This document shows, piece by piece, positions 11,730-61,780 of a stretch of 64,000 bases of DNA (positions are counted from its first letter, which is position 1; the number at the start of each line of letters is the position of its first letter). A program made the position numbers and the translations under genes. This stretch comes from a virus. The notes under the pieces are model-generated. The model worked only from the letters and a program-made list of their open reading frames with translations, made no database searches and was not told the origin of the DNA. The stretch spans positions 183,113 to 247,112 of the IMG/VR virus record IMGVR_UViG_3300035703_000006, one strand, 5' to 3'.

Positions 11730-12195
11730 TTTATCTTATCTCAATCTTGAATACTTAAAAAATACACTTTTAAATATAAAAACAAGTCCTCATGGACTTG
11801 TAACAAAAGGTACTTCCACTTACAATCACGGAATGCCTGTCTTAATGTATCCAGAACTGATTGGATTGAGAAATATCATCAAACAATATGTTAGACTATA
11901 TTGTAGTAAGTATAATATTTCACCTCTAAAGTTTATTAATAGTTGGTTTAATATCTCACAACCAGGAAATAAACTTAAGGCACATAAACACGAAGAAAGT
12001 ATTATTAGTGGAGCATTTTATATTTCTGGAAAAACTTCATTAATTTTTTCAGATAAATCCATTAAACCTTACTCTGGACTATTAGTAATCTTCTCAAGTG
12101 ATTTGATTCACTACACAGAAGAAGAAACAGAAGAAAGAATAGTTATTAGTTTCAATACCGATTATGAAGAAAGTACTCGTTACACTGGACATTAA
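11713..12195 (+). CDS. Putative 2OG-Fe(II) oxygenase-like protein
   Basis: 160 residues. A double-stranded beta-helix pattern is visible: SWFNISQPGNKLKAHKHE ... SGAFYISG ... LLVIFSSDLIHYTEEE ... ERIVISFN. The His-x-Glu pair, distal His and later Arg fit the facial triad and 2-oxoglutarate-binding Arg of phage and cyanobacterial putative 2OG-Fe(II) oxygenases. The substrate is unknown; neighbours suggest modification of sugars or fibre residues. It overlaps both neighbours (17 and 32 bases). Confidence 0.6.
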   Translation: MIEEYNLSYLNLEYLKNTLLNIKTSPHGLVTKGTSTYNHGMPVLMYPELIGLRNIIKQYVRLYCSKYNISPLKFINSWFNISQPGNKLKAHKHEESIISGAFYISGKTSLIFSDKSIKPYSGLLVIFSSDLIHYTEEETEERIVISFNTDYEESTRYTGH

Positions 12196-12886
12196 TTATA
12201 ATAAAGACATCACAAATCTTACATATCCTTATATGAGGAAGTATGCTGAGAGAATTGGTGCTGATTTTGTAATTATGAATGAGAGAAAGTTTCCACATCT
12301 CTCAGCAAATATGGAAAAGTTTCAATTATATGAAATTGGAGCAAACTATGATTGGACTATTTTTCTTGACGCAGATGCTTTAATTCATCCCAATTGTCCA
12401 GACATTACGGAAATTTATAATAAGAATTGTGTAATCTTTAATAGGCACGATTATTATCCTTTTAGATTCAAACACAATAATTATGCAAGAAGAGATGGGA
12501 GAAATATTGCTGCTTGTACTTGGTTATGTGTTTTTAGTGACTGGACTCGTCATGCCTGGGAACCATACGAAAATCCAGAGCAATTTATAGATCAAATCAA
12601 TCCTATGGATTTGGAAAAAAACTTTGGATACGAACCACATCATATTCTTGATGATTACCTAGTGAGTCGTAATATCGCAAAGTATGGATTGAAAGTTGAA
12701 ACATTATATCAGTTAGTTCCAAAAGATGCTAAGATGAACTATTGGTTCAATCACGACTTTTGCATTAATGAAGATGACAAAATTAACCTTCTTAAAATGT
12801 GGATAGATAAGATTGAAAAAGGTTCTTATCGTGAAGAAAATCAGATTGAAGAACAATTATGGGGGTGGAAAAAGGGATTACTATGA
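12164..12886 (+). CDS. Putative glycosyltransferase (GT-A fold, DxD)
   Basis: 240 residues. The N-terminus is Rossmann-like (MKKVLVTLDINYN), followed by YMRKYAERIGADFV and TIFLDADALIHPN, where DAD is a typical metal and nucleotide-sugar binding DxD of GT-A enzymes. C-terminal KMNYWFNHDFC and a histidine-rich PHHILDD may contribute to the active site. It overlaps the upstream oxygenase-like gene by 32 bases and the next gene by an ATGA junction. Confidence 0.6.
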   Translation: MKKVLVTLDINYNKDITNLTYPYMRKYAERIGADFVIMNERKFPHLSANMEKFQLYEIGANYDWTIFLDADALIHPNCPDITEIYNKNCVIFNRHDYYPFRFKHNNYARRDGRNIAACTWLCVFSDWTRHAWEPYENPEQFIDQINPMDLEKNFGYEPHHILDDYLVSRNIAKYGLKVETLYQLVPKDAKMNYWFNHDFCINEDDKINLLKMWIDKIEKGSYREENQIEEQLWGWKKGLL

Positions 12887-42471: not shown

Positions 42472-42544
42472 GCCCGATTAGCTCAGTGGTAGTAGCATCT
42501 GTCTAGTAAACAGAAGGTCGTCAGTTCGAATCTGACATTGGGCT
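42472..42544 (+). tRNA. tRNA-Thr (AGT)
   Basis: Acceptor GCCCGAT/ATTGGGC, anticodon stem TCTGT/ACAGA with loop CTAGTAA. A34 is unusual for a bacterial-type tRNA and would normally need conversion to inosine. Confidence 0.8.
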
Positions 42545-42547
42545 CTC

Positions 42548-42756: not shown

Positions 42757-42829
42757 GTCCATGTAGCCCAATGGAAGAGGCAATAGACTAAGGATCTATT
42801 TGTTGGAGGTTCGAATCCTCTCATGGACA
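42757..42829 (+). tRNA. tRNA with AAG anticodon (Leu)
   Basis: Acceptor GTCCATG/CATGGAC, anticodon stem ATAGA/TCTAT with loop CTAAGGA (AAG, codon CUU), T-arm GGAGG-TTCGAAT-CCTCT. G37 fits Leu, but the variable loop is only 5 bases while bacterial Leu tRNAs have a long arm, and A34 is unusual. Confidence 0.7.
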
Positions 42830-42833
42830 CCTT

Positions 42834-44677: not shown

Positions 44678-44698
44678 ACTATAGTTGTGGAGAGCACT

Positions 44699-45235
44699 AT
44701 GGTTACTTGTAAGTGTCAAAAATGTGGATTACAGTTTGAAAAGATTAAAAGTGAATATAATAGAAAAATTAAATTGGGAACTCCATTTTTTTGTAGTTTG
44801 AAATGTTCTAGTAGTTTTGATACTTCACATTTGGATAACTGGAGAAAAAGTGAGGAAAACAAAAAGTTTATAAAGCAGTTTAGTGGAAGTAGTAAAGATG
44901 AATATTCTCCTTTCAGAGAGACATTAAAAAAAGTCAAAAATAGAAGTAAATCTAAAAATAGAGAATGTGATATTGATTTGCAATATTTAAAAGAGGTTTG
45001 GGAAAATCAAAAGGGCAAATGTCCATATTTGAAAAGAAAATTAGTTCTTCCCCTAACTGACCAATCTCACGACAAATCAAACCCAAATCTAATTGCTAGT
45101 TTGGATAGAATTGATAGCTCTAAAGGATACGTAAAGGGAAACATACAATTTATCAGCACGACCTTAAATTTTGCTAAAAATAAATATTCTGAAAATGTTC
45201 TCTTGAATTTAATTGAAATGTGTGCTACTATATAA
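44699..45235 (+). CDS. HNH-type homing endonuclease
   Basis: 178 residues from ATG 44699 (a GTG at 44687 is too close to the promoter). An N-terminal zinc finger (CKCQKCGLQFEK; FFCSLKCSSSF) is followed by a nuclease core: KGK-CPY then LIASLDRIDSSKGYVKGNIQ and FISTTLNFAKNKYS, typical of mobile HNH enzymes. It sits between the tRNA array and the tmRNA with its own late promoter, as a homing gene would. Confidence 0.75.
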   Translation: MVTCKCQKCGLQFEKIKSEYNRKIKLGTPFFCSLKCSSSFDTSHLDNWRKSEENKKFIKQFSGSSKDEYSPFRETLKKVKNRSKSKNRECDIDLQYLKEVWENQKGKCPYLKRKLVLPLTDQSHDKSNPNLIASLDRIDSSKGYVKGNIQFISTTLNFAKNKYSENVLLNLIEMCATI

Positions 45236-45459
45236 AGTGTTCAAGAGGATAAACCTCTATATTCCAACACATCGGGGCAGTACCGATTACCTCCATTACA
45301 GGGGGGTAAAACAGAATCGACTGGGGTGTATGTATTATCTGTTGACGGGACAAAAAACAAACGCAAACAACATTGTTGCATTCACTCGTCAGACCGCATT
45401 GGTTTGACCATAAAAGAGTGAGGGGGTTATAAGTTTCCTTCTTACCCAAAACTTATGCT
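45236..45459 (+). ncRNA. ssrA: Permuted two-piece tmRNA
   Basis: The 3' half comes first: hairpin AGAGG/CCTCT, T-arm ATCGG-GGCAGTA-CCGAT (45271-45287), acceptor 3' strand TACCTCC (45288-45294) and A73. A 6-base spacer (45296-45301) follows, then the acceptor 5' strand GGGGGTA (45302-45308), all 7 pairs matching, and the conserved D-like segment AATCGACTGG. The tag frame starts at GCA 45363 and ends at TGA 45405-45407: ANNIVAFTRQTALV, close to cyanobacterial tags (ANNIV-F-R-), but without the usual final Ala-Ala. A hairpin ATAAGTTT/AAACTTAT (45429-45456) and a terminator follow. tmRNA with SmpB rescues stalled ribosomes. The permuted two-piece form is known in some cyanobacteria. A TGCTACTAT at 45223 is a possible -10. 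Confidence 0.85.
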
Positions 45460-45488
45460 GGGGACACTTGAAAAGGTGTCCCCTTTTT
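45460..45488 (+). terminator. Rho-independent terminator of the tmRNA
   Basis: GGGGACAC (45460-45467) pairs with GTGTCCCC (45476-45483), followed by T5. Its right arm is also the upstream box of the next promoter. Confidence 0.88.
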
Positions 45489-61693: not shown

Positions 61694-61780
61694 TTCTTAT
61701 GGGCATCAAAGGTCCAAACTTTGAGTAAGTCCCACCCCCTCCATGCCTCTTTACAATGCACAAACAGGAGGGTCTCTTAT

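Follow-up and report, generated by a model that had tools for sequence, protein, structure and literature searches.

A predicted two-piece tmRNA gene of a cyanophage with an alphaproteobacterial-type tRNA-like domain and a tag ending in -ALV

Natural tmRNAs join two jobs: they release ribosomes and tag incomplete proteins for degradation. A phage lineage in which rescue is kept and the degron is changed would make it possible to test on a natural system whether viruses require rescue but not proteolysis. This question is raised by a tmRNA-like gene in the window, by which we mean the whole stretch of DNA analyzed here, i.e. the final 64 kb of a virus record of 247,112 bases. The virus is a cyanophage, since the record holds two photosystem II reaction-centre genes (Photo_RC; psbA/psbD-like frames of 374 and 355 aa) located 3 kb apart at G000:C1:124138-128808.

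Layout and conservation of the tmRNA gene

Judged by its sequence, the region 45238-45488 of the window is a circularly permuted two-piece tmRNA gene, and an array of 26 tRNA genes lies directly upstream of it. The Rfam model RF01851 (cyano_tmRNA) covers positions 45222-45481 end to end with 65.2 bits (E 4.2e-17, 801 bases searched), which does not reach the whole-model gathering score of 70. RF04321 (tmRNA_permuted) covers 45245-45401 with 47.9 bits and passes its gathering score of 47. The strength of these matches is far above chance. A sequence-only reading of the locus had named ARAGORN and Infernal as checks: the two Rfam models agree with it, but ARAGORN did not report the window gene. 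Since ARAGORN also missed the hybrid relatives that were tried (described below), phage surveys based on this program undercount them. The features of the locus are as follows:

44687-45235, + strand: HNH / endonuclease VII-like ORF (PHROG 3322, E 5e-24); its 3' end overlaps the promoter-like element
45203-45231, + strand: promoter-like element TTGAAT-N17-TACTAT, extended TGC; predicted start near 45238
45238-45295, + strand: acceptor (3') piece of the mature tmRNA, from the RF01851/RF04321 alignments; start deduced from the promoter-like element
45258-45266, + strand: connector helix (P2), acceptor-piece strand TATATTCCA; 9/9 pairs with 45322-45330
45271-45287, + strand: T-arm, stem ATCGG/CCGAT; alpha-type T-loop GGCAGTA at 45276-45282
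45288-45295, + strand: 3' acceptor strand TACCTCC and discriminator A73; bears U70 of the G3-U70 alanine identity pair
45296-45301, + strand: intervening segment TTACAG between both mature ends; predicted to be removed in maturation
45302-45488, + strand: coding (5') piece of the mature tmRNA, terminator included; the RF01851 match reaches 45481
45302-45308, + strand: 5' acceptor strand GGGGGTA; 7/7 pairs with 45288-45294
45309-45321, + strand: alpha-type D-loop segment AAACAGAATCGAC, the same as in the alpha-type phage tmRNA L085; the cyanophage form is CCATGGTTTCGAC
45322-45330, + strand: connector helix (P2), coding-piece strand TGGGGTGTA; pairs with 45258-45266
45331-45362, + strand: PK1-region segment of cyanophage type, containing TATCTGTTGACGGGACAAAAAACAAAC; upstream of the resume codon
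45363-45407, + strand: tag frame ANNIVAFTRQTALV-stop; resume codon GCA, 14 codons, TGA
45388-45408, + strand: hairpin GTCAGACC-GCATT-GGTTTGAC, made of the end of the tag frame and the stop codon
45418-45456, + strand: H-type pseudoknot; stem 45418-45426/45437-45445, and ATAAGTTT 45429-45436/AAACTTAT 45449-45456
45460-45488, + strand: intrinsic terminator, a terminator-like hairpin GGGGACACTT-GAAA-AGGTGTCCCC-TTTTT

The gene order is thus connector strand, T-arm, 3' acceptor strand, intervening segment, 5' acceptor strand, D-loop, connector strand, PK1, tag and pseudoknot. The permuted arrangement of T-arm and acceptor strands had been recognized in the sequence-only reading at these same positions; the seven acceptor pairs it claimed all form, as do 5/5 pairs of the T-stem, and its tag frame reads as listed, followed by TGA. 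The acceptor piece stops at A73 and CCA is uncoded, the next bases being TTA. The intervening segment had been called very short. Its length is 6 nt in every hybrid and about 4-6 nt in cyanophage relatives, so that it is ordinary for this group.

A generic sigma-70 scan called no promoter at the tmRNA gene; the promoter-like element emerged from comparing relatives. The motif TTGAC(A/T)-N17-TACTAT is found at constant spacing upstream of most of 27 related phage tmRNAs. In IMG/VR searches the hybrid form, defined by the alpha T-loop variant together with the leader, was present in at least 23 other viral contigs and the ordinary cyanophage-type tmRNA in about 30; among INPHARED phage records the hybrid form was not found at the sensitivity of the search used. 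With RF01851 most hybrid relatives score 68-85 bits, several lying above the gathering score at 72-85.

The predicted structure is conserved throughout this set. T-stem and acceptor stem are paired in 23/23 related phage sequences with changes on both sides, including a compensatory C-G to U-A change in the acceptor stem of relatives L006 and L158, and the G-U at acceptor position 3-70 is kept in all 23 (23/23). Compensatory changes also occur in the connector helix and in the tag-end hairpin, which folds in all hybrids tried. In the 3' pseudoknot, whose first stem corresponds to the cyano_tmRNA helix, 6/8 pairs show changes on both sides. Folding of the tmRNA segment beats 200/200 shuffles (z -3.8). 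The bit score might suggest a decaying, nonfunctional passenger copied from a host or another phage, as cyanobacterial host tmRNAs score 299-324 bits with RF01851 vs about 65 for the window gene. Such an origin is extremely improbable, however: the 23 or more other contigs keep the gene with compensatory and synonymous changes, the promoter-like element at constant spacing and the terminator are retained, and no relative was seen in which the acceptor stem or the tag frame is broken.

Two further observations concern the RNA genes of the window. The tRNAs Thr(AGT) at 42472-42545 and Leu(AAG) at 42757-42831 carry a wobble A, which is uncommon in bacteria. An abiF RNA (RF03085, 50.8 bits) is located at 61737-61773, just ahead of a tRNA-Arg at 61780; the Abi_2 protein was absent from the four ORFs scanned around it, one of which contains an HNH domain.

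Origin of the tRNA-like domain

The point missed by the sequence-only reading is that the tRNA-like domain (TLD), including the T-loop GGCAGTA, is of alphaproteobacterial type. On sequence grounds the gene is a mosaic in which the TLD is alpha-type and the promoter, leader, pseudoknots and tag are cyanophage-type. The T-loops and D-loops of 182 TLDs from the retrieved loci fell into two coupled combinations: TTCGA(C/T)T occurs together with ..GGTTTCGAC, GGCAGTA in most cases with A..AG(G/A)(A/T)TCGAC. The window gene combines GGCAGTA with the D-loop AGAATCGAC; the canonical cyanobacterial TTCGANT and GGTTTCGAC are absent. The consensus of RF01849 (alpha_tmRNA) has the T-loop GGGGCgGUACCC and the D-loop AAuAGGAUCGAC, that of the cyanobacterial model the T-loop GGUUCGAUUCC. 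Replacement of T-loop uridines by guanines was described in an alignment study for the mitochondrial tmRNA of Reclinomonas and, at one position, for Caulobacter (PMC1168896).

Over a 48-nt TLD core, 42/48 positions are identical to the nearest alpha-type phage tmRNA (6 mismatches) and 29/48 to the nearest cyanophage tmRNA (19 mismatches), while the nearest cyanobacterial host tmRNA differs at 18. At ten diagnostic sites in the TLD, nine states are alpha, none is cyanobacterial and one is neither. A T-loop pattern served to retrieve the alpha set, so that evidence free of this selection comes only from the D-loop sites and the Rfam consensus. Trees group the hybrids with the alpha set (support 91/74), and constraining their TLDs with those of -ALV phages bearing a cyanobacterial TLD was rejected (dlnL 40, p-AU 0.015). 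The short 48-nt core limits such tests: broader alternatives were not rejected by AU tests, with p 0.44 for hybrids and all cyanobacterial-type sequences on one side and p 0.08 for hybrids with all cyanophages.

Sequence identity to cyano-TLD phages changes along the gene. It amounts to 84% in the leader and 93% from PK1 (from 45331) to the middle of the tag. The TLD, by contrast, is 55% identical and the first connector strand 22%. These values bear on the idea that the alpha-like T-loop and D-loop arose in place by convergence, without recombination. The TLD is short and, as the two AU values illustrate, trees alone leave a cyanobacterial placement partly open. Yet nine of ten diagnostic sites being alpha and none cyanobacterial argues against convergence, as do the connector strands, which are replaced too although both flanks remain 84-93% identical to cyano-TLD phages, and no intermediate TLD was seen among the 182. 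Overall we regard convergence as unlikely.

Replacement of the TLD is the reading we prefer. In an ancestral cyanophage tmRNA, a contiguous TLD module of about 75 bases, made up of connector strand, T-arm, both acceptor strands and D-loop, would have been exchanged for an alphaproteobacterial-type one, the donor probably being a phage of alphaproteobacteria. In a standard tmRNA gene the TLD parts sit at opposite ends of the gene. The permuted layout keeps the module contiguous, and therefore one short exchange could replace the whole TLD with both coupled loops together. The mosaic thus suggests that this gene layout may make it easy to swap the TLD as a unit.

Two other routes were considered for the exchange. 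An origin of the T-loop from the host was rejected, since the alpha-type arm occurs in 0/386 cyanobacterial genomes spread across the phylum. The HNH gene as a general driver of TLD exchange is unsupported: the relatives L003, L006 and L007 are without a nucleotide match to the HNH ORF, and their promoter flanks differ.

Compared with known families the window gene stands between two types. With the cyanobacterial RF01851 tmRNAs and their copies in the Synechococcus phages S-CAM1, S-CAM3 and S-CBWM1 and the marine virus AG-345-P14 it shares the permuted order and the uncoded CCA. The cyanobacterial PK1 sequence, the ANNIV/ANKIV start of the tag, the tag-end hairpin, the 3' pseudoknot and the promoter-like leader are also present, and the short intervening segment is found in RF01851-type cyanophage copies as well. 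It differs from this type in its alpha TLD and in the tag ending, which is ALV vs TVAA, LATA or SCA in phages or PVAA in hosts. The copies in these four GenBank records were unannotated and score 120-128 bits (in the order listed, L128 3004-3272, L129 3004-3273, L002 4848-5126 and L130 954-1230). ARAGORN gives the S-CAM1 tag as ANTSDSAANNIVAFSRSTVAA.

With the alphaproteobacterial RF01849 tmRNAs and their phage copies of the pelagiphage/Melnitz type (PMC9004378) the window gene has in common the T-loop GGC(A/G)GTA, the D-loop AGGATCGAC and the permuted order. In contrast to that type it lacks an encoded CCA and a long intervening segment, and instead of an alpha mRNA domain with a tag ending in AA it carries the cyanobacterial tag and pseudoknots. 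Two-piece phage tmRNAs as such are already known from Melnitz and from 53/133 phage tmRNA structures (PMC9004378), so that their rarity had been overstated in the sequence-only reading.

The tag ending in -ALV

The usual Ala-Ala degron at the end of the tag, which is neither universal nor family-defining, is missing in the window gene, where the tag ends in ALV. That the tag is of cyanobacterial type without terminal Ala-Ala had been noticed from the sequence before; the relatives now show that -ALV is a conserved ending and not a local lesion. Tags of the hybrids end in ALV, with SLV in one case and VSV in a subgroup. About ten ordinary contigs with a cyanobacterial TLD have the tag ANNIVAFSRS(K/N)(S/T)TALV. 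Across the -ALV lineages leucine is encoded by TTG, TTA, CTA and CTT and valine by GTT, GTC and GTA, and one lineage stops with TGA, the other with TAG. The sequences thus place a conserved -ALV in two phage lineages with different TLDs, codons and RNA hairpins. That a one-base frameshift produced the short tag is contradicted by the synonymous changes with which relatives preserve the ending, and was rejected. Part of the conservation of the tag end in the hybrids can be put down to RNA structure, since the hairpin that it forms shows compensatory changes. In the second lineage, LV falls outside the corresponding hairpin, which makes a constraint at the amino acid level likely.

All sampled cyanobacterial tags (116/116) end in AA or VA, the retrieval pattern having fixed an earlier alanine and not the tag end. 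Tags predicted by ARAGORN end in AA in 40/40 permuted cyanobacterial genes, 61/63 alpha-type phage genes and 21/39 cyanophage genes, the remaining cyanophage tags ending in LV (11), TA (5), VA (1) and CA (1); the sequences in these counts are phylogenetically non-independent, and hybrids are uncounted. A search of cyanobacterial genomes for ANNIV-type tags ending in ALV-stop gave 6 pattern matches, none of them tmRNA-like, at a rate like that of a reversed-pattern control.

Some hybrids (L059, L067, L138, L155, L156, L159, L168 and L170) have the resume codon GTA, not GCA. If read at the same place, their tag would be VNNIVAFSRQTVSV.

Ribosome rescue and the fate of tagged proteins

Because acceptor stem, G3-U70, connector, pseudoknots and an open tag frame are conserved, the gene appears to encode a working trans-translation RNA, and trans-translation by the phage tmRNA is in our view well supported. 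Transcription would be driven by its own promoter. Processing of the RNase P and tRNase Z type would free the two pieces, which would pair again via the acceptor stem and the connector helix. After addition of CCA by host enzymes, alanyl-tRNA synthetase would charge the tmRNA through G3-U70, and host AlaRS, EF-Tu and SmpB are expected to serve it. With host SmpB, ribosomes stalled on broken mRNAs would be freed during infection and ANNIVAFTRQTALV appended to the unfinished proteins. An SmpB gene was not found in the 247-kb virus record; function with cyanobacterial SmpB is assumed for this reason, and the question arises how this protein serves an alphaproteobacterial-type T-loop/D-loop pair.

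Alternatively, the RNA could be a decoy, i.e. a tmRNA that is defective and, by titrating SmpB or the ribosomal A site, blocks host trans-translation. The TLD-only RNA of mycobacteriophage DS6A offers a precedent for such an inhibitor (PMC4131195, PMC11915505), a foreign TLD might bind host SmpB differently, and L059-type relatives have the changed resume codon GTA. Like the DS6A RNA, the window gene is a modified tmRNA borne by a phage. However, the DS6A RNA, reported to be inhibitory, has no tag frame, while the window gene keeps tag and pseudoknots. Constraint acts here on the whole mRNA domain with its pseudoknots, on the open tag frame and its stop codon, and on G3-U70; since a decoy could do without the tag, we consider it very unlikely.

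For E. coli ClpXP a change of either alanine raises KM (PMC7652416), and for this reason -ALV should be a weaker ClpXP degron. The loss of Ala-Ala would have occurred independently of the TLD swap and been maintained; its most likely effect would be that rescue no longer entails degradation of the tagged peptide by ClpXP, and an escape of rescued phage peptides from degradation is plausible. ClpXP decay of a protein ending in ANNIVAFTRQTALV would then be slower than that of one ending in ANNIVRFSRQTAPVAA. In E. coli, lambda-immP22 depends 10,000-fold on trans-translation, and most studies conclude that this phage requires the rescue of ribosomes but not proteolysis directed by the tag (PMC2862035). 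A phage tmRNA that keeps rescue and relaxes the degron fits this requirement for rescue alone. The tag can be likened to those of the E. coli SsrA-DD laboratory mutants, in which rescue proceeds without an efficient ClpXP degron, and tags of this type support growth of lambda-immP22 with an EOP of 0.1-0.5 (PMC2862035). In contrast to SsrA-DD, the window tag is natural, conserved and made by dropping two alanines.

It is also conceivable that -ALV still acts as a degron for another host protease, such as a tail-specific protease of the Prc/CtpA type, FtsH or a ClpX of other specificity, in which case tagged proteins would be redirected and not protected. The ending is nonpolar, tail-specific proteases act on nonpolar C termini (as cited in PMC8909930), and the tag has been conserved in sequence rather than just lost. 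However, neither ClpP nor an S41 peptidase was found in the phage record, and we consider redirection rather unlikely. Altogether we hold it probable that the gene is a working phage tmRNA, a mosaic formed by TLD replacement, in which the loss of Ala-Ala is maintained and likely uncouples rescue from ClpXP.

Altered or missing tmRNA tags are already known (PMC11915505, PMC4131195). In the open-access literature we found no report of a chimeric tmRNA, with the TLD of one phylum's type and the mRNA domain of another's, or of a natural cyanophage tag that is conserved and lacks the terminal alanine; the TLD/mRNA-domain mosaic and the conserved -ALV ending therefore appear to be new. More broadly and more tentatively, phage tmRNAs may be modular, with a permuted TLD cassette swapped across phyla and large cyanophages employing a tag meant not to lead to degradation, or to lead to it by another route, so that rescue is separated from ClpXP proteolysis. 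We deem this general scheme quite possible, if somewhat short of likely.

Several related genes show features of their own. Some permuted cyanophage tmRNAs harbor a complete tRNA-Tyr(GTA) gene within their intervening segment (L139 1886-1968, L142 13582-13664, L147 757-839 and L150 1233-1315); a 2025 survey treated as unique the case of one nominally archaeal gene with a tRNA-Ala nested in it. Synechococcus WH7803 has, besides its main gene at 323.5 bits, a second cyano_tmRNA match of 153.6 bits at G001:C1:862708-862935. Besides an alpha-type tmRNA, the viral contig L101 carries a GOLLD RNA and a large array of tRNA genes (795-1101 and 12031-12431).
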